From the IMG/VR virus record IMGVR_UViG_3300030222_000031, positions 1-36,178 of that record: a stretch of 36,178 nucleotides of DNA. The stretch is one strand, 5' to 3'. Positions 2,488 through 13,701 of the stretch are shown here, one piece after another (the stretch's first letter is position 1; each line of letters begins with the position of its first letter). A program made the translations under genes and the position numbers. The notes under the pieces were generated by a model that saw only the letters and a program-made list of their open reading frames with translations, was not told the origin of the DNA and made no database searches. Origin of the DNA: a virus.

Positions 2488-2748
2488 ATGGCGCTGCCGT
2501 TGCGTTTTCAAATGACCGATGACGATACGCGCGGACTTGGCATTGCCTATCTCGCGCTTGCTGAGGCCCTTGCCGATCATGCCCCCAAGGCGTTTCGCCA
2601 GGTGATGGCGGACGTTTATGCAGCTCTCGACAAGGAACAGGAGGAAAGGCCCGGCGCCGACCTGACGCTCGGGTTTGAGTTCACCGAACTTGCGGAAGCC
2701 GCGGAGCCCGGCAACGGACCGGAGACCGCGCCGCCGGTCCTGCCATGA
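2488..2748 (+). CDS. Small acidic hypothetical protein, partner of RadC-like gene
   Basis: An 86-residue acidic, mostly helical protein (LALAEALADHAPKAFRQVMADVYAALD) with no family I recognise. It is the first gene after the strong promoter at 2433-2461 and its stop overlaps the ATG of the RadC-like gene (ATGA), so the two are co-expressed. No clear Shine-Dalgarno sequence precedes the ATG at 2488; an internal ATG at 2512 is an alternative start. A dedicated partner or regulator of the RadC-like protein is an inference from the coupling only. Confidence 0.65.
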   Translation: MALPLRFQMTDDDTRGLGIAYLALAEALADHAPKAFRQVMADVYAALDKEQEERPGADLTLGFEFTELAEAAEPGNGPETAPPVLP

Positions 2749-3533
2749 CCCCCCGCTACCGCAACCGGCCAGCCTATTACAGCGGGACACCCGCACACCG
2801 GGACACCTGGAAACTTGTTCAATCCAAGCCCGAGCTTGCGGCCGATCATCACTACATCGAGTGTTTGCTGAGCTTTTCCACGCCCTATCCTGACGTGCGC
2901 ATCCAGGCCAAAACGGTCCTAGCCGAGTACGGATCTCTGGCGAAGGCCTGCCGGGCCGAGTGGGCGGCACTCAAAGCTCTTGGCCTCACAGATGAAGGGG
3001 CCGATGCCATACGATCGGTTGGCTTTGCGGCCGATATGGTGAAACAAGAGGAAGACACTCAGGAGCGCGTCTGGATTCGGACGCAGGAGGATGCTGTCGA
3101 ATACATTGACACGCATCTGGCGCCAGACCAGCCGGAATGGCTGGCCGTCCTTTATCTAGATGTGAAGAACGGCGCCCACCGTGCGGTCCTGATCCAGGAC
3201 GGCTCACCATCTATCACGGATCAAACAGGCCTCGAACTGATCCGCCACGGGCTACGGGAAAATGCGCGCCAGATGGCCATGCTCATCCAGTCTAGCAAGA
3301 ACGCGCCCTCGCCCCGCACGGAAGAGGTGCTGGCTCTGCGCAAAATGCTCCGCACCGGTGAACTGATTGGCCTCGACCTTCTGGAGCTCTACTACCGCGG
3401 ACGGCACGGCGTTAAATCGTTCATCGGCTGGGTGGAGCCTCTAGACCAACCAGAACCACAAAAATCCATCACCAAAGAGGATATCGAAGCGATCCGGGCA
3501 GCGCTTGATGCGGCAACGGATCAGTTTGAGTAG
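2745..3533 (+). CDS. RadC-like JAB/MPN-fold protein lacking metal ligands
   Basis: A 262-residue protein with RadC-type architecture. Residues about 35-90 resemble the N-terminal helix-hairpin region (LLSFSTPYPDVRIQAKTVLAEYG, then LGLTDEGADAIR). Residues about 130-232 follow the JAB/MPN core: LAVLYLDVKN, a short strand-turn, RHGLRENARQMAML, then ELIGLDLLELYYRG. Where RadC has the HNHPSG metal site the sequence reads IQSSKNAPSP (181-190), and the later Asp-His of the DH strand is also changed. The protease-like Zn site is therefore absent and the protein is probably non-catalytic or acts by binding. It is translationally coupled to the 86-residue protein. RadC-like genes are common in mobile elements, but their role is unresolved. 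Confidence 0.72.
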   Translation: MTPRYRNRPAYYSGTPAHRDTWKLVQSKPELAADHHYIECLLSFSTPYPDVRIQAKTVLAEYGSLAKACRAEWAALKALGLTDEGADAIRSVGFAADMVKQEEDTQERVWIRTQEDAVEYIDTHLAPDQPEWLAVLYLDVKNGAHRAVLIQDGSPSITDQTGLELIRHGLRENARQMAMLIQSSKNAPSPRTEEVLALRKMLRTGELIGLDLLELYYRGRHGVKSFIGWVEPLDQPEPQKSITKEDIEAIRAALDAATDQFE

Positions 3534-4358: not shown

Positions 4359-4536
4359 CACGCGCCCTTTCCTGTTCAAGGGTCAGGGCAGCTTCCAGGT
4401 CTTCGGCCCTGTCCCTCAATAACGCCCGAGACCCGCCGAGCGCATAAACGGACGCAACCAACACCATGCCCAACAAAAAGGCCGCTGAAATGCGGCCCGT
4501 TTTGGTGAAGAACAAGAACTTGAAAACGGCAATCAT
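4234..4536 (-). CDS. Inner-membrane spanin (Rz-like)
   Basis: A 100-residue protein with one N-terminal membrane segment (about residues 15-33, RISAAFLLGMVLVASVYAL) followed by a charged helix (LLRDRAEDLEAALTLEQERARDD), the layout of i-spanins. The ATG at 4536 overlaps the endolysin stop by ATGA. A longer open frame extends upstream inside the endolysin gene but is only a shadow. The C terminus (LCLEYFRHSDRMRNREECRALRGV) has two cysteines that might allow disulfide-linked dimers, as known for some spanins. Confidence 0.78.
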   Translation of the reverse strand: MIAVFKFLFFTKTGRISAAFLLGMVLVASVYALGGSRALLRDRAEDLEAALTLEQERARDDAFLQKLENERLCLEYFRHSDRMRNREECRALRGVYGEQP

Positions 4537-5315
4537 CCGGCCCGCTCCCTTTGCAACAGGAGATAGCCGCCAAGGGCAACGGCCATGACCAGGGAGACGG
4601 CCAACGCCCATTGCAGCGGCCCCGAGCCGGACAAGACCGCGCCAAGCCCGGAAAGAGCCCCCACCCCTTGCGTAACGCCTTCCGGCGTGCGCCAGGCGGA
4701 CAGCCAACCCGTTTCGCTGGCAGGCGCCTTGCAGCCGGCCGGCTTTGGAACCGGCACGCCTTGTATCGCCGCTGAAGGATCGGCCCGCGCCTTTGCAGCC
4801 CGATAAAGATCCAGAGACAGGGCTTGCACTTCGCGCACCCGCCGTGCCCATCCATTCTTGTTGTACCGCCAATTCTTGAGGCGTTTCATGTAGGCAAGCC
4901 GCGCCCGGCAATAGGCGGTGATCAGGGCGGGAAGGTCCCGCCCGTTCATCGCGCTCAGCGTTTGCACCCCGACGATCCCGTCAGCGACAACACCAAGCAG
5001 CCTTTGCAGGTATTTGACCGCCCGGCCCGGCCCGCTGTTCACGCCAAAGTCAAAAACGGCATAGTCAATCCCGGCCGGCAGGCGGGCACCGCGCACCGCG
5101 TCCCAATACTTTACCTTATAGATCCGCCGCGCTTCATCGCGCGACAGATTGCGCACGTCTTCGATGCTGACCGGTTCGCCCCGCCATTCGCGCAAGGTCT
5201 GAAGTGTGATTCCGTACTTGGTCGCCCCGCCCGGATCTTCCCGCCTTGGCCGGTTTGCAAATCCGCCTTCATGGCCGAATAGATGCGGCTCGATGGCGTC
5301 AAATGTCGCTTCCAT
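4533..5315 (-). CDS. GH108 endolysin (muramidase) with C-terminal membrane anchor
   Basis: A 260-residue cell-wall hydrolase. The N-terminal domain has the glycosyl hydrolase 108 signature: catalytic E16 in HEGGF, then DPGGATKYGIT (27-37), IYKVKYWD (65-72) and DYAVFDFGVNSG (84-95). A peptidoglycan-binding-like helical segment follows (QRLLGVVADGIVG). Near the C terminus residues about 234-254 (PLQWALAVSLVMAVALGGYLL) form a membrane segment, so the enzyme may be tethered. The ATG at 5315 has AAAGGG 7 bases upstream and is preferred over one at 5330. It is the first gene of the lysis cassette, directly below a terminator at 5345-5366. Confidence 0.9.
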   Translation of the reverse strand: MEATFDAIEPHLFGHEGGFANRPRREDPGGATKYGITLQTLREWRGEPVSIEDVRNLSRDEARRIYKVKYWDAVRGARLPAGIDYAVFDFGVNSGPGRAVKYLQRLLGVVADGIVGVQTLSAMNGRDLPALITAYCRARLAYMKRLKNWRYNKNGWARRVREVQALSLDLYRAAKARADPSAAIQGVPVPKPAGCKAPASETGWLSAWRTPEGVTQGVGALSGLGAVLSGSGPLQWALAVSLVMAVALGGYLLLQRERAG

Positions 5316-5344
5316 GGTCTGCCCTTTCATCTGGTTGCAGGCAC

Positions 5345-5366
5345 AAAAAAAGCCGCTTGCGCGGCT
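5345..5366 (-). terminator. Rho-independent terminator upstream of lysis cassette
   Basis: Minus-strand hairpin AGCCGC / GCGGCT with a 4-base loop, followed by T7. It lies 30 bases before the endolysin start. It probably ended the tail transcript before the HNH cargo separated it from the tail genes; lysis genes downstream then need read-through. Confidence 0.85.
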
Positions 5367-5457
5367 CAGATTTCGAGAAATAATTTGGAGATTCCGAGTT
5401 GCTAGCGTCTAAGTGGCAACTTAGCTTTCTTCAGCATGTACACCTCACTCAGGTTCA

Positions 5458-5473
5458 AAGATGATTTCAAAAA
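5458..5473 (+). repeat. 16-bp direct repeat, left copy (cargo boundary)
   Basis: The sequence AAGATGATTTCAAAAA occurs here and again at 7443-7458, just beyond the start of the SRA-HNH gene. The two copies bracket the HNH-HIT and SRA-HNH genes. The left copy overlaps the start codon of HNH-HIT. It could be a duplication from insertion, a site for excision by homologous recombination, or an A-rich coincidence. Confidence 0.55.
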
Positions 5474-6492
5474 GCGCGGCATTTCAGAAGCTTAAAGACT
5501 ATATCTCGACGAAAATGCGAATGTCACATGTATACCAACCGGCGATGATCCGTGCGCTACTGAATGGTGGTGGAAGCGCGAACATAGAGAACATTGCGGC
5601 GGCTCTTCTGAGGGAAGACCAATCACAAATCGAGTACTACTGCCACAGGGTGAAATCCATGGTTGGGCCGGTACTAGGCCGCAATGGAATTGTTAATCCT
5701 GTCAGGTCCGGAAGGAAGATCGTCGGATATGAACTCGCTGATATAGAAGCTCTTACTGACATCGAAAAAGCCGAACTCGTAAGCCTGTGTGATGCCAAGC
5801 TTGAAAACTACATAGAGAAACGTGGTGGTGAAATCTGGGCACACCGCACTCCGGCTGAAGGATATGTTCCGGGCACAGTCCGCTACGAGATCCTGAAACG
5901 CGCGCACTACCGCTGCGAACTCTGCGGGGTCTCTGCTGAAGAAAAGGCACTACAGGTAGACCATATCGTTCCTCGTGCACGCGGCGGAAGCGATGACATA
6001 AGCAATTTCCAAGCGCTTTGTTATTCCTGCAACGCCACCAAGCGAGACCGGGATGACACAGACTTTAGAGCCATGGCTGAAAGCTACCACCATCGCGAGG
6101 CGTCTTGCGTATTTTGCGACATAGACGAGCAGAGAATAGTCTCCGAAAACGAGCTCGCTGTTGCAATTCTGGACGGATATCCGGTCACGGAGGGGCACAC
6201 CCTCATCATACCCAAACGCCATGTTTCCAGTTACTTCGATCTCCACCAGCCGGAGTTGAATGCTGTACAAAGACTGTTGCAGGAACAGAAAAGTCTACTG
6301 ACAACTAATGACCCGGAAATCACTGGCTACAATGTTGGCGTGAATTGTGGTTCAGACGCTGGCCAGACTATCTTTCATTGTCACATCCACCTGATCCCAC
6401 GACGCAAAGGCGATACACCGAATCCGCGGGGCGGGGTCAGAGGCGTCATCCCGGATCGGCAATACTATGACCCAACAAAGCCCCCAAAGTAG
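5461..6492 (+). CDS. HNH endonuclease-HIT hydrolase fusion, candidate defence protein
   Basis: A 343-residue fusion. Residues 1-120 are a helical region with a winged-helix feel (MVGPVLGRNGIVNPVRSGRKIVGYELAD) that I cannot name. Residues 148-195 are a complete Zn-type HNH nuclease: CELC (152-155), VDHIVP with DH 167-168, N182, CYSCN (187-191). Residues 213-320 are a HIT domain: CVFC (216-219), PKRH (250-253) and the histidine triad HCHIHLIP (306-313). HIT proteins hydrolyse or transfer nucleotides; aprataxin-type members remove AMP from DNA ends. A nuclease joined to such an enzyme suggests DNA cleavage plus end or nucleotide processing. It is opposite in strand to the phage late genes and converges on the SRA-HNH gene. 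Phage or plasmid defence is inferred from domains and place only. Confidence 0.88.
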   Translation: MISKSAAFQKLKDYISTKMRMSHVYQPAMIRALLNGGGSANIENIAAALLREDQSQIEYYCHRVKSMVGPVLGRNGIVNPVRSGRKIVGYELADIEALTDIEKAELVSLCDAKLENYIEKRGGEIWAHRTPAEGYVPGTVRYEILKRAHYRCELCGVSAEEKALQVDHIVPRARGGSDDISNFQALCYSCNATKRDRDDTDFRAMAESYHHREASCVFCDIDEQRIVSENELAVAILDGYPVTEGHTLIIPKRHVSSYFDLHQPELNAVQRLLQEQKSLLTTNDPEITGYNVGVNCGSDAGQTIFHCHIHLIPRRKGDTPNPRGGVRGVIPDRQYYDPTKPPK

Positions 6493-6548
6493 TCTTTTAT
6501 CGGTACGTGTCTCACGCGTAACAAGAAGGCACGAGGGGAACTACGCCG

Positions 6549-7394
6549 TTAGGGTTCTATTGTTTTTAGTCTCTCTTTGAGTTTTTCGTTTAATAGTTCA
6601 CCATCTTTCCCATAATGTATCTCCCGATGCACGGAAGGGCATAAGGCGGCTACATAACGCGGATCATCTGGACCGTCGTCGGATAGACGGCGCGTATGAT
6701 GGACCTCAAGATAAGGGGCACCTGATCGGGTTAGAAATGGCGCTTCACGGCCTGTTAGCTCACACTTACCCTTTGCACGCGCAAGCACATAGTCTCGAAC
6801 CGCTTTCGATCTCTCTCGATAAGCCATCGGCGCACTCGACCACTTTTTTGACTGAGTGGGTGTTGAAGCTTTTTTGGCTTTTGCCCGAAGGGCATCAAGA
6901 TCATCGTCTTCCTGGGGCTGCATGTCCAAATCGGACTGCATCTCTACATTGGACGCTAACTTTACAAGGTGAAACCTGATTGCCGAACGTTCTTGATTAT
7001 TGCTATCCAAACCACGAAAGTCATCCCAAGACTGGCAAGCGAAGCGTCCCAGAAAACGAACCGGCTTCCCCTTTCCTAACGACTCAAACAGAAGAATATC
7101 TTTGCCGTCGCGCGCATGATCGCGGAGCGCAGCATTGCCGCGCAAAAACTGCATATCACCTACCTGGCCTTCTCCAGTGTAGAGGAACACGCCCTCATCT
7201 TGCCAACCATCTTCGTATCCATGCTGCTCACCTGATTTCCCTGTGAAAATAAAGATATAAGGGTGCTTGGAAGGCGTTGATATTCCACCTTGGCGCTGAC
7301 CGCCGAATCTTTGATGAATATCCTCAATGCGTTTGTAAAGTTCACCCTCTACGAACAAGGCACTTCTCCTCCGCTTCAGCTTTAAAACATTCAC
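6549..7394 (-). CDS. SRA-like domain plus HNH nuclease (type IV restriction-like)
   Basis: A 281-residue protein. Residues about 28-122 carry a pattern (YEDGWQDEGVFLYTGEGQVGDMQF, RGNAALRDH, LLFESL, VRFLGRF) like the SRA-type modified-base readers of ScoMcrA-like nucleases. A variable linker (150-190) leads to a C-terminal HNH domain: LEVHHTRRLSDDGPDD (H232, H233) and ALCPSVHREIHYG (H256, H260). The paired zinc cysteines usual in such HNH domains are incomplete: CELT instead of CxxC at 211, and CPSV instead of CPNC at 252. By analogy it would cleave DNA carrying modified cytosines. It has a lower GC content than the tail genes and ends 57 bases from the HNH-HIT gene, tail to tail. Confidence 0.83.
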   Translation of the reverse strand: MNVLKLKRRRSALFVEGELYKRIEDIHQRFGGQRQGGISTPSKHPYIFIFTGKSGEQHGYEDGWQDEGVFLYTGEGQVGDMQFLRGNAALRDHARDGKDILLFESLGKGKPVRFLGRFACQSWDDFRGLDSNNQERSAIRFHLVKLASNVEMQSDLDMQPQEDDDLDALRAKAKKASTPTQSKKWSSAPMAYRERSKAVRDYVLARAKGKCELTGREAPFLTRSGAPYLEVHHTRRLSDDGPDDPRYVAALCPSVHREIHYGKDGELLNEKLKERLKTIEP

Positions 7395-7442
7395 ATTAAA
7401 CCGAGTGAGTTATGGTGGTTAAAGTATGCTTTTTTCAACTTC

Positions 7443-7458
7443 AAGATGATTTCAAAAA
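7443..7458 (+). repeat. 16-bp direct repeat, right copy (cargo boundary)
   Basis: Identical to 5458-5473 (AAGATGATTTCAAAAA). It lies between the start of the SRA-HNH gene and the end of the DUF2793 tail gene, so it marks the right edge of the two-nuclease cargo. Confidence 0.55.
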
Positions 7459-7485
7459 CGCTTGGAAACACAACACTAGACAACC

Positions 7486-8199
7486 TCACCTTTGCGGCAC
7501 CACCGGCAAGAAGTAGTGCAAGGCAATGCGCACCTTGCCCCCGGTAAAGGCCCCGCCCCCGCCATTAGCGGTGATCACAACCGGCGTGTCTGAATAGAAG
7601 GCTTGCGGCCCGATCACACCGGCATTTGTCGAGCCGAATGCAATCCCGAGATAACCGCCGAACTTCTCCGGTTCGCCGGAAATTCCGCAATGATAGTTGA
7701 ACGGCCCGCTAATCGCGTCCGTGGTCCGCGTCGAGACCCCAAACACAATTGCGCGGTTGGGAATGACGATGGAGCTTTGAACCGAAGACCCGGAAAGGGT
7801 CAGTTCTTCCTCGATCGTAACAATCCGGCTTTCCGCACCGCTGACCGTTGACGACAGCCGTGCCACTTCCGGCCCGGTCCAGGTTGTCCCGTCAAAGACC
7901 GAAAACCCGTTTTCGTCTTGGATGAAGGCACGCCAGCCTTTAAGCGGCTGATAGAAGGACCAGGCGCCGCCCGCAAAGCTGGCAACCTTGCCATCCTGCC
8001 CCGCGAAGTCCCCCGCAGCGCCAAGGGGCACGATATAGCGGGCGCCTTCGCCCGGTGTGCCAGGCGCATTGGCGATGCGCCGGGACACCACGGCCAATTG
8101 AACAAGGGCATCAAGGGCAAGCAAGGCTTCATTGTGCGTTACATGCTTTTGCGCCTGTGCGGCGGCGATCTCCGGCAGATCCAGATTCGGTGTACTCAT
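7486..8199 (-). CDS. DUF2793 phage tail-tip / fibre protein
   Basis: A 237-residue protein starting MSTPNLDLPEIAAAQAQKHVTHNEALLALDALVQ, the hallmark N terminus of DUF2793 proteins at the distal end of GTA-like tail operons. GWRAFIQDENGFSVFDGTTW around 88-107 is also typical. The C-terminal half (from about 140) is beta-rich with glycine-rich turns and ends in RIALHYFLPVVPQR, suiting a receptor-binding or decorating domain. The ATG at 8199 overlaps the stop of the large tail protein (ATGA), so the long open frame upstream is not used. Confidence 0.85.
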   Translation of the reverse strand: MSTPNLDLPEIAAAQAQKHVTHNEALLALDALVQLAVVSRRIANAPGTPGEGARYIVPLGAAGDFAGQDGKVASFAGGAWSFYQPLKGWRAFIQDENGFSVFDGTTWTGPEVARLSSTVSGAESRIVTIEEELTLSGSSVQSSIVIPNRAIVFGVSTRTTDAISGPFNYHCGISGEPEKFGGYLGIAFGSTNAGVIGPQAFYSDTPVVITANGGGGAFTGGKVRIALHYFLPVVPQR

Positions 8200-11100
8200 G
8201 GCGTGTAGTCTCCTGTTCCGGCCGTTCCCCAGCCATAGGTGGTTGAAAGTTGAAAGACCAGGAAGGTGAAGGCCCCGGCAGCTGACCCAAAATCGGCCGC
8301 TTGATCGGCGGCCGTGTAAAGGATCTCCTGTGCTTGTGTTGTGAGCGTTCGCCGCAGCGTGCCCCCGCTCCATATTTCGACCTCGAAAGCTTCGCTTTCT
8401 TCGCCCAAGGGCACGTCGGGTTGCTCCCAACCATCCCCGCCAATGCGTGTGCGGCGTATCCAGGACAAGCGAATTGCGCCGCCGCCGACCCGTGCCGCCC
8501 GGCAATGGACCGGTGACAAGGGACGCGCACCGCGCCCGGTCATGGTGACTTGATAGGCGGTGAAGTCTTCCGACCCCACCACACCATTTGACGGCCCAAC
8601 CTGCCAGTTGAGCGGCAACCCGACTTGCGCGGACGGCAGGCCGGATTGCGCGATGCCGCCGGTTGGCACAACTACCCGCGCACCCGGCGCTGCCCCCATG
8701 GCCGCTTCACTGCCCCGCTGCCCCCGCAAAAGCCGGGACAGCCGGTAAGTGCGTTCCCCGATCAAGACCGCGCGGGCATATTGCAACACCTCCCAATCGC
8801 CGCTTGGTGCCTGCACAAGCAAGGGATTGCCCCCGGCCAACACAAGATCATCGGGCAAGCTTTGCAGCGCGCCGGAAAAGAGTTTCACATCAAGCGTGCT
8901 GGCATTGTCCCACCGGTAAAGCGGCCCGGTGCCAAGGGCGGTCAACGTTTCGCCAATCGTTCCCGGCACGTCGAGCGCCGCGCGCACGGTGTAGCCGCTG
9001 GACCCGGGCGACGACAGGAAAGCCAGCCCCGGTGCGAACGGCAGCCGGTAGCCGGTGACATAGCCCTGTTGCGGGTTGTCATCATCGCGCAGCAACGGCC
9101 CATCGATGAACACGCCAAGGGCTTTGGCTTTCTCAGGCTGTTTGCCGGAGAGTGTAACAACCCGCCCGAGCCCGCGCGCCGGTTCATACACCGGCCCGTC
9201 ATAGCTCTTGCCCTTGATGGACCGCCCGGCCCCATCCGCAACACCACCGATCCGGACAAGGTGCACGCGCCCGCCATAGTCGAGCGCCACCACGTCCCCC
9301 GGTTCCAGGGCAAGACAGGACGGCGGTACGGCAAAGGTGAAACTTTCCCGCCCGGCCCACGCTTCCAGCAAAAGCGCGTCTGCCCAGGCTTGCACCCGGT
9401 CATAATCGGCAACAATCGGAACATCGGTGACAACAACCCGGTCACTGGTCGCTTCCGCCAGAAGCCCTTCACCGGTCACGGTTTGAAAGTCCCGGCGCCC
9501 GTCATAGGCGGTCAGGCGCACCACACGCGGCAATTCGGTAAGCTGCGAACGGGTCACCCGCGCCGCTTCGCCATTCTTCCCCTGATCAACCAGCGCGCCG
9601 CGATCCAGCGACAGGACGGGCAAGCGGGACCGGCGCGACCGGCCGGCAATCACGCCGCCCGATTCCACCGCATCAAAAAAGAACGCGGCCCCCAGCGTTT
9701 CCAGCACGCTTCGCGCACTGGTCACGTTGTCGATGATGAACCCGTCCGCAACCCCGGCAAAGCCTTCCGTTGAATAGTCCTGCCCTTCGACAAGCCCGCT
9801 CCGGTCAAACAACAGCCGCGCAAGGCCATCGGCAGGAGCACCGCCAAACCGGCCCGACAGCCAATGCCCGGTCAGGAAGTTTGCGTGATCTGCCCAGCGT
9901 TCAGCATCCACCGGAAACGAGGGAAACGGGCGCACGTCCCAAGCCCACGCAAAGAGCTTGGATGTATCCAGCATGCGCCCGGCATAGCCGCCCGATACGG
10001 GATTGTTCCCGGCTCCATCCGACCAGTATTCGACCATGGCCCGCAAATAGCGCCGTTGCACAAGATCATCCCGCGCACCGCTGGAAAAATGCGGCACGAA
10101 GCTTTCCGAACTTTTCGGATCGAAAAACACGTTCGGCTGGTTTGCGCCCTTGTCGATGGCCGGGCATCCGAATTCAGTAAACCAGATGGGCTTTGACTGC
10201 GGTGTCCAGCCGGTCGCCGCGCCTTGGCGCACCCCGCCCGGCCTGTTCCGGTGCACGCTTTGCCACCACCCCCGAATATCCTTTTGCCGGAACACCCAAT
10301 CTTCACCATGGGCGCCGTCACTAATCGGTGTGCGCGTCTGGCTGTCCCGGTCGGCATCGCTGGCGTAATACCAGTCATAGTATTCCCCGCCTTCAATGTT
10401 GGATTTCAGATAGTCCAGGTCATGGATCGACTGGTGCGCGGCCGAATGGTCCAGGTGCCCCGGCTCATCCCGCCAATCGGCAAGCGGCAAGTAGTTGTCG
10501 ATGCCGATGAAATCGAGGTCCGGATGCGACCAAAGCGGGTCCATGTGAAAGAACACGTCGCCCGAGCCATCAGCGGGCCGGTGCGAATGGTATTCGGACC
10601 AGTCCGCCGCATAGCCGAGTTTGACACCGGACCCCAGAACCGCCCGCACGTCCTGCAACAGTGTCACCAGACCATCCACAAACGGAAACGCGTTGCCCGG
10701 CCCTCTTACAGTGGACAGGCCGGGCATTTCCGTTCCGATGCAAAAGGAATCGACCCCGCCCGCACTCTTGGCCACCTCGGCCAGGTGCAAAATGAAACGG
10801 CGGTAGGACCACCCCGTCCCGCCGCCGCTGTTCATGAAACTGGCAACTTGCGCCGCCGCCGCTCCGGTCTTGTCCACCGTGCCCGGCTGTCCGGCCGCGG
10901 GATGGCAGGTAATGCGCCCGCGCCACGGATACACCGGCTGTTCAGCCCGCCCGTAAGGGTCCGGCAATCCGTTTGCGGCCGGCACATCCATCATGATGAA
11001 CGGGTAAAGCAACACGTGAAAACCGCGTGCCTTCAGGTCTTGGATTGCCTTGATCACGCTGCCATCGTCGGGCGATCCGCCGAACGCCGGTTTGCCGTCC

Positions 11101-12406: not shown

Positions 12407-13261
12407 CTATTCCTTAGGCGCTCTTTTACAGTCTGCTAGTAGCAAGCGCTTCACTTTTCCGCTTGCTGAGCTAACGCGACGTACTCTCATATCTAGTTTG
12501 TTTTGGGCGCCAATATTACTCCCATGTAGCGACCAGGTTAGCAAAGAAAGGTCACCCACAGAGAAATCGCCATCAGGTCGTATGGGGATCACGCGTTCGA
12601 ACTGATCAACAAATACCCGAGCGTTTCGCGATAGCGAATTGTAGCGTGTGACATTACCGCGCAACACTTCTAAACCCACCGCTTCTTCGCGTGTATTTAC
12701 CCAATCCTTAGTGTTTTCGTTGAAATTGACAAGCTCATTTCTTGGGGTGCCAATAGAAATACTTCTAATTGTCCCCTCTGCGCCCACTGGGCGGTGGGCT
12801 GCTTGAAGGCTGCCTTCGAGTATTTCGGAAAGTTCATCAAAGTCAACTGGAGGCTTCTTGAGGGGAGGCGGTTCTTTCCGTTCATAAATTTTCTTGAGTG
12901 TATTAGTCTTTGGCTCTGCATCAAGGGCACCGGTTGCCCTGCTGAAAGCCGTTTTAATGAAGTCATAGAACATCGGGCCGCCCACAGAGGCCGCAAGGGC
13001 TGACATTGCGGGATAAGCTTCAATTAACACGATCAATTCGAAGATAAAGCTGCCTTGTCTGGCAGGCTTCATTTGAATAGACGCTTTTTTCAGAGCGGTA
13101 GCACGAGTTGTAACTTCACTATTCATATATGCATGAGTTGCAATATGCAGAGCTCGAGTAATGCCGTCGATGGAAGTAGCACCATCATAACCAGGCAGCA
13201 TATTTTCGTCTGCTAAACCGCCTATATATTTGATCTTAAAGCGGTGTTCGGATAGTGCCAT
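12407..13261 (-). CDS. Accessory protein, DUF7946-like, inserted in tail operon
   Basis: A 284-residue soluble protein. Its N-terminal part (HRFKIKYIGGLADENMLPGYDGATSIDGITRALHIATHAYMN) follows the pattern of uncharacterised proteins labelled DUF7946, which are scattered among accessory loci. Hydrophobic helices lie at about 75-115 of this start (SFIFELIVLIEAYPAMSALAAS), and the C-terminal part is charged. The frame is open up to 13378, which would add 39 residues with a hydrophobic segment. I prefer the ATG at 13261 because GGGG precedes it and the family pattern begins there. It breaks the conserved gp14-gp15 order and has lower GC, so it is cargo. Function unknown; defence or superinfection control is possible. 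Confidence 0.62.
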   Translation of the reverse strand: MALSEHRFKIKYIGGLADENMLPGYDGATSIDGITRALHIATHAYMNSEVTTRATALKKASIQMKPARQGSFIFELIVLIEAYPAMSALAASVGGPMFYDFIKTAFSRATGALDAEPKTNTLKKIYERKEPPPLKKPPVDFDELSEILEGSLQAAHRPVGAEGTIRSISIGTPRNELVNFNENTKDWVNTREEAVGLEVLRGNVTRYNSLSRNARVFVDQFERVIPIRPDGDFSVGDLSLLTWSLHGSNIGAQNKLDMRVRRVSSASGKVKRLLLADCKRAPKE

Positions 13262-13701
13262 TTGCTGCCCCAGCGTGTTTAGTTTTTTGAACACCTTAGA
13301 GCGCTTAATTGTTTTATGCATCAAAAAATTGAAAATAATCAGAGGTACAAACGCAAAAAATGCTGATGTTATGCGCATTTATCGGTGAAGAGGCGATCTA
13401 CGACAATGCTAGGGAAACACTGCTTGAGTTGGCTGCTCTGTCCGTACTGGCAACAGCCCGGCATTGAAAAAGTTTCGGCGACTTCGAAGGACTGCTTTTT
13501 AGTATCGGCAACGCGGCATTGAAGTTTGCTTCACCAACCGATACCAGACGCCCCTTTCGCCTGTTTTTTGGGCATATCTACCGTCCGTGACCAGCGCGAC
13601 GAATGACTATTGACCGCCCAAGTTTCCAGTTTACCGCATCCCACCTAAGGTCTTGGGTGGGCTCGTTTCAACCATTTGCTGCAACTGAACCCAGTAAAAG
13701 C
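13262..13701. other. Non-coding right flank of tail-module insertion
   Basis: About 440 bases without a supported gene. It includes an imperfect hairpin at 13640-13661 (CCCACC / GGGTGG) lying 41 bases beyond the NlpC/P60 stop on the minus strand, without a T-run. The phrase GGCATTGAA recurs at about 13461 and 13515. Confidence 0.45.

Follow-up and report, generated by a model that had tools for sequence, protein, structure and literature searches.

A winged-helix, HNH and HIT fusion protein carried as cargo on a viral contig is a candidate type IV-like restriction effector

A gene on a viral contig raises the question of what an HNH nuclease and a HIT nucleotide hydrolase would do within a single polypeptide chain, and whether their joint activity is directed against foreign DNA. 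The contig (IMG/VR record IMGVR_UViG_3300030222_000031), considered here over its full 36,178 nucleotides and called the window, encodes an integrase, a terminase, a tail tape measure protein, a tail protein, an endolysin, and a repressor. Its integrase ORF (1–1335, +) begins at the first base, so the left phage end may be cut. The original prediction, made from the letters alone, described an HNH–HIT fusion with full motifs in both domains, which proved exact (Table 1). The HNH part matches PF01844 over residues 152–197 (E 7.5e-14) and the HIT part matches PF01230 over residues 224–316 (E 2.6e-19), both above the curated cut-offs, together with a second match of the HIT part to PF11969 (DcpS_C; 1.5e-13). 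The HNH domain possesses the catalytic residues and CxxC zinc knuckles of HNH nucleases (C152-x2-C155, D167-H168, N182, and C187-x2-C190-N191), and the HIT domain contains C216-x2-C219, Q302, and the superfamily triad H306-C-H308-I-H310, recovering HIT structures in Foldseek at probability 1.0. Conservation of these motif residues is complete or at least 90% in an alignment of 24 full-length sequences, the window's included, in which the relatives are 44–62% identical to the window protein. A model spanning the whole winged helix (wH)-HNH-HIT architecture is absent from PADLOC, NCBIfam, and PHROG, which return single-domain matches only, and no NCBIfam model exceeds its own cut-off for the fusion.

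Table 1. Features of the fusion gene and its surroundings in the window.
Feature	Coordinates	Strand	Description and basis
wH-HNH-HIT fusion protein	5461..6492	+	343 aa, ATG start; ORF translation, Pfam HNH and HIT, alignment A1 of 24 sequences
N-terminal domain, residues 1-135	5461..5865	+	Predicted winged helix with helical extension, probable DNA binding; AlphaFold2, Foldseek
HNH (beta-beta-alpha-metal) nuclease domain, residues 138-208, CELC..DH..N..CYSCN	5872..6084	+	PF01844, conservation, dN/dS
HIT domain, residues 213-336, CVFC...H-C-H-I-H-L-I-P and tail RRxGDxxxPRGGVRGVIPxxxxY	6097..6468	+	PF01230, tree
Endolysin, left cargo flank	4533..5330	-	phrog_315 5.7e-48
Cargo insert, 2.15 kb, between endolysin and tail-fibre genes	5331..7485		GC, related phage L156
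McrA-like SRA-HNH modification-dependent endonuclease	6549..7394	-	281 aa, GTG start; adjacent to and convergent with the fusion
Tail-fibre-like protein, right cargo flank	7486..8505	-	phrog_15388 3.8e-71, phrog_35360 tail fiber 3.2e-17; listed ORF starts from an upstream TTG

The region ahead of the HNH domain was earlier treated as an N-terminal domain of 120 residues to be searched for; it indeed has no Pfam match (residues 1–135), but it is not merely unknown, being predicted as a winged helix. The full-length fold search with Foldseek was dominated by HIT matches and was uninformative on this part, and hence the N-terminus was folded alone. The AlphaFold2 model, built with 22 homologues, has a pLDDT of 87.6 and a pTM of 0.82, and its elements run H-H-E-H-H-E-E-H, as in a winged helix followed by a long helix. 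In Foldseek, it most resembles wHTH proteins of the MarR/ArsR type and the winged helices of ORC, at probabilities of at most 0.98 yet with E values of at least 0.008 and modest or low TM-scores. The family profile of this domain retrieved no relative among PDB sequences, where no known modification reader matches it in sequence, and DpnI is absent from the first 50 Foldseek matches, though fast-evolving wH domains can hide homology. At the level of fold, and with moderate strength, a winged helix that probably binds DNA is likely, not proven.

The fusion was also described as cargo between lysis and tail genes, and it does lie between the endolysin and tail-fibre genes. The GC content of the insert is 49.5% vs. 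63.5% and 62.3% in its flanks, and the related phage L156 represents the empty site, its tail-fibre and endolysin genes being only 70 bp apart. The insert holds no genes other than the fusion and its McrA-like neighbour and is thus a two-gene cargo of foreign composition. The second gene, right next to the fusion, had been overlooked. It matches PADLOC mREase_IV (2.7e-18), phrog_15103 over its full length (1.6e-71), and, in the PDB, McrA (6ghc, 2.4e-17) and ScoMcrA (5zmm, 1.5e-11), together with a weak SAD_SRA match in Pfam (0.0028). Its protein has no match in IMG/VR, and a further search gave one full-length distant phage match. Elsewhere in the window, a 262-aa protein (2745–3533, +) appears RadC-like by eye, with an HhH-like N-terminus and a JAB-like C-terminal part whose metal-binding motif is seemingly missing, and it has no PHROG match at 0.001. 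Another gene (12407–13378, −; 323 aa) lies among the tail genes, has an N-terminal stretch that looks membrane-spanning and the lowest GC of the window (~46%), and is possibly a second cargo gene.

Other HNH–HIT fusions, whose search had been suggested at the outset, were found across phyla, along with split HNH and HIT pairs. A scan of GTDB genomes gave 28 loci matching the fusion, and in all, the wH-HNH-HIT chain was found in ~40 genomes of several phyla. The three-part chain is known from Alpha-, Gamma-, and Betaproteobacteria, Bacteroidota, Acidobacteriota, Fidelibacterota, FCPU426, Chloroflexota, and one Nitrosarchaeum MAG, and its recurrence in so many phyla shows that the fusion is neither a sequencing artefact nor a product of chance. 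It is sparse where it occurs; for instance, ~11 of 397 Roseobacteraceae genomes (~3%) have full-length copies, in addition to decayed pieces. The whole-chain dN/dS between close relatives is mostly 0.05–0.16, and the per-domain values are below 0.3 in all three domains (0.02–0.12 for the HNH domain), and each domain is thus constrained by purifying selection. Decayed copies, either IS-truncated or with internal stops, are a sign of turnover (L148 1350–2996, G394:C47:5279-5527, and G295:C13:31489-31749). The prophage setting of the original prediction holds for the window, itself a viral contig, but is an exception in the family: a single further full-length copy was found in IMG/VR, residing in a recombinase/transposase cassette and not among phage structural genes, and bacterial genomes hold almost every full-length relative, away from clusters of phage structural genes.

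A link to mobile elements was an expectation that the survey bears out. The relatives, whose neighbours were classed by eye and by targeted profile scans, accompany serine-recombinase cassettes, integrases, plasmid genes, and restriction genes and are not mostly found in housekeeping places. Their neighbours vary, and a minority of the copies have housekeeping genes beside them (e.g., L014, L016, and L023). A cassette arrangement is frequent in Roseobacteraceae, with the fusion placed after a serine recombinase and small helper genes. Neighbour clustering revealed no gene that accompanies the fused form throughout; the recurring ones are recombinases, a gene of ~517 aa, and type IV genes. The ~517-aa gene without a Pfam match ('MDRWNSEPLDVHTWSDHPEIK') turns up ahead of, or otherwise close to, the fusion or what is left of it (L003 6299–7852, L005 220–1782, L142 12508–14082, and L152 5177–6792); a serine resolvase often accompanies it, and the gene may form the core of a small mobile element.

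Several type IV restriction genes are among the neighbours. In Loktanella (L015), a homologue of the window's McrA-like SRA-HNH gene comes after the fusion. The fusion at L147 starts 3 bp past mcrC of an apparent, complete mcrBC operon, and an IS-truncated copy at L148 is located just downstream of another mcrBC, ~0.8 kb away. Since mcrC is present in only five of the 28 fusion-bearing genomes, these two adjacencies are far beyond chance, with an estimated ~0.004 expected. SauUSI-like PLD-helicase-DUF3427 genes (PADLOC mREase_IV, 1.9e-227) adjoin L020 and L024, and a SauUSI-like helicase together with a NUDIX gene (PADLOC candidate PDC-S07) occurs at L024, L049, L079, and on a Hymenobacter plasmid. 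HNH_2 genes lie directly upstream of the fusion at L010 and L012, and L008 lies in a defence island with restriction–modification and OLD/Gabija-like genes.

The HIT subfamily also exists as a stand-alone protein, members of which were picked, blind to their neighbours, with sequence motifs taken from the fusion itself, mainly those of its HIT domain. A same-strand HNH gene lies within 250 bp of the stand-alone HIT at 19 of 50 loci, some of them closely related, making the independent events fewer than 19, compared with none of 35 control HITs of the same genomes (Fisher p = 8.5e-6), whose Pfam table covers 25 families only and could hide one HNH neighbour; a motif scan of the control loci gave two matches, judged spurious by eye. 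The paired genes mostly touch or overlap, and both gene orders occur. Their HNH partners belong to several families, including a 340-aa family with CFYC..DHF..WNLVL, HNH_4 types, and a short PF01844 protein. The pair was repeated at four of seven annotated plasmid loci, with the partner at L188 being recognised by profile. This recurrent linkage suggests that the fusion is the one-chain form of a wider HNH and HIT unit. Approximately 60% of the stand-alone HITs have no adjacent HNH gene, and the HIT may thus have other uses. Some HNH-adjacent HITs (L074–L076, L078, L079, and L081) bear an extra N-terminal part of ~160–210 residues. Genes for HNH, HIT, PDC-S07-like NUDIX, and SauUSI-like PLD-helicase-DUF3427 proteins also cluster together (L049 4611–8272, L079 7512–11993, and L190 4975–11137) in Bacteroidota and a gammaproteobacterium, in what looks like a compound restriction cluster; at L049, only the HIT, NUDIX, and helicase genes are directly adjacent.

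The three domains, the intact active-site residues, the linkage of HIT to HNH, and the recurrent type IV neighbours together suggest that the fusion is a restriction-type (type IV-like) defence effector, carried as prophage cargo and acting against phage or plasmid DNA, an explanation that we favour by a narrow balance. The role against foreign DNA anticipated for the chain thereby gains support from relatives that are sparse and close to mobile and restriction genes. In such an effector, the winged helix would anchor the chain to DNA and possibly recognise a modified base, and the HNH domain would nick or cut the bound DNA. The HIT domain, being of the FHIT/Ap4A-hydrolase type, would bind and hydrolyse a nucleotide, such as an ApnN alarmone, an AMP or NMP conjugate, or a modified nucleotide, and this hydrolysis may gate or assist the nuclease. 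The prophage would in this manner shield its host from competing phages. A broader proposal, to which we give somewhat less than an even chance, is that HNH and the HIT subfamily constitute an undescribed and widespread defence module, both split and fused, in which modification-dependent restriction works together with a nucleotide hydrolase, namely the HIT, at times joined by a NUDIX partner; the HIT might then act, for example, on modified nucleotides or on a nucleotide signal made during infection.

The affinities of the HIT domain bear on how it would contribute. In the PDB, phmmer and the family profile both place FHIT, the Ap4A phosphorylase Rv2613c, and HinT-type proteins as its nearest solved structures. 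The NCBIfam ATP adenylyltransferase model matches the fusion below its cut-off (5.3e-14), and the PADLOC ThsC2 model matches at 7.2e-10, a generic HIT similarity weaker than that to Pfam HIT. A tree of 112 HIT domains separates the subfamily from 24 of the 26 other HITs of the same genomes with support of 96/97, and the remaining two make up one very long branch; on this basis, the HIT of the fusion is assigned to a distinct subfamily, apart from the housekeeping HITs. Within this tree, which was built on few columns and whose fine branches are unsure, the fused members are not one clade, requiring at least five changes, and their grouping crosses phyla and conflicts with taxonomy, as expected under transfer with repeated fusion or fission.

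One alternative for the HIT domain is an off-switch, i.e., a hydrolase that destroys a nucleotide second messenger or an Ap4A-like alarmone controlling the HNH nuclease. The FHIT/Ap4A-phosphorylase type of the domain, its ATP adenylyltransferase match, and the NUDIX genes at some loci are consistent with this role, and the same kind of hypothesis exists for ThsC, the HIT gene of Thoeris type II (PMC8565338). However, no signal-producing enzyme is seen consistently beside the fused form, and the proposal is a sub-version of the restriction effector, inseparable from it by sequence; taken by itself, it is rather unlikely, though the best placed of the alternatives. The original prediction had also pointed to aprataxin-type end processing, in which the HIT would strip AMP from the 5′ ends of failed ligation, leaving the breaks made by the HNH domain unsealable or degraded. 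The intact histidine triad, the DcpS_C match, and the fusion to a DNA nuclease, which would place the HIT at DNA ends, are in its favour, but neither phmmer nor the family profile returned an aprataxin entry from the PDB, where the closest relatives are of the other types named above, and the C-terminal zinc finger is missing, with the chain ending ~27 residues past the HIT Pfam match. This function is therefore unsupported and considered improbable, and signal or alarmone hydrolysis is the more likely chemistry of the HIT. Because these two alternatives are versions of how the HIT part works, the likelihoods given to them are not exclusive of that of the restriction-type effector.

The fusion might instead serve the phage or be selfish, as a homing-type or packaging-associated HNH nuclease that gained a HIT domain. 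HNH nucleases are common in phages and the gene is on a viral contig, but its full-length relatives are nearly all bacterial and outside phage structural clusters, it is absent from related phages, no terminase gene is adjacent, and the linked McrA-like gene and McrBC operons point to restriction, leaving this option a slim chance. Equally doubtful is a DNA-repair or nucleotide-housekeeping enzyme merely travelling with mobile elements, which the universal presence of HIT enzymes in general and the copies among housekeeping genes would fit, against the low frequency in Roseobacteraceae, the conflict of the HIT tree with taxonomy, and the restriction neighbours.

The restriction-type effector proposed here shares parts with several known systems. 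One known class of type IV enzymes consists of wH-HNH fusions recognising N6-methyladenine (PMC11037411). These have the same order of winged helix then HNH in one chain and the same type IV setting, and one of them, HhiV4I, is likewise virus-encoded. However, a HIT domain is not reported in that family, and among PDB sequences the fusion's winged helix matches neither DpnI nor any other solved reader. The McrA/SRA-HNH enzymes (EcoKMcrA, ScoMcrA, and TagI), one member of which is the next gene in the window, have an HNH of the same broad class (family profile vs. McrA 6ghc, E 8e-6). The fusion differs in bearing a winged helix in place of their SRA domain and in its additional HIT. ThsC of Thoeris type II is a HIT-family accessory protein in defence (PMC8565338) and hence resembles the fusion in its link to defence, whereas ThsA and ThsB (TIR) are not constant neighbours at the fused loci, which have nucleases and type IV genes instead. 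FHIT, Rv2613c, and the Mycobacterium smegmatis HIT (3o0m), nearest in fold and sequence, share the Q-x-x-x-H-x-H-x-H-x-x-P motif and the CxxC pair but are stand-alone metabolic enzymes, while the present subfamily has a GGVRGVIPxK tail and the HNH linkage. NIT-FHIT (1ems) is also a HIT joined to another enzyme; it is eukaryotic, has a nitrilase partner, and is without a nuclease. The original prediction held that the HNH–HIT form is not known from any studied system, and no description of such a chain or operon was found in the open-access literature; DefensePredictor and the domain surveys consulted do not contain it either. Type IV fusions of a nuclease with a reader domain and the HIT accessory of Thoeris are already known, and there is an appreciable chance that the HNH–HIT unit is a new module.

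The recurrence of the HNH–HIT pairing beside genes that destroy foreign DNA suggests a probably undescribed system against viruses or plasmids. If this is right, a HIT nucleotide-processing enzyme would join type IV-like restriction, a partnership without a mechanism on record, and nucleotide metabolism and DNA cutting would be coupled within one chain. The conserved module offers the active-site mutants H168A and H308A, together with the split version, as handles on this coupling, and a function would be given to a HIT subfamily labelled only as 'HIT family protein' in databases.
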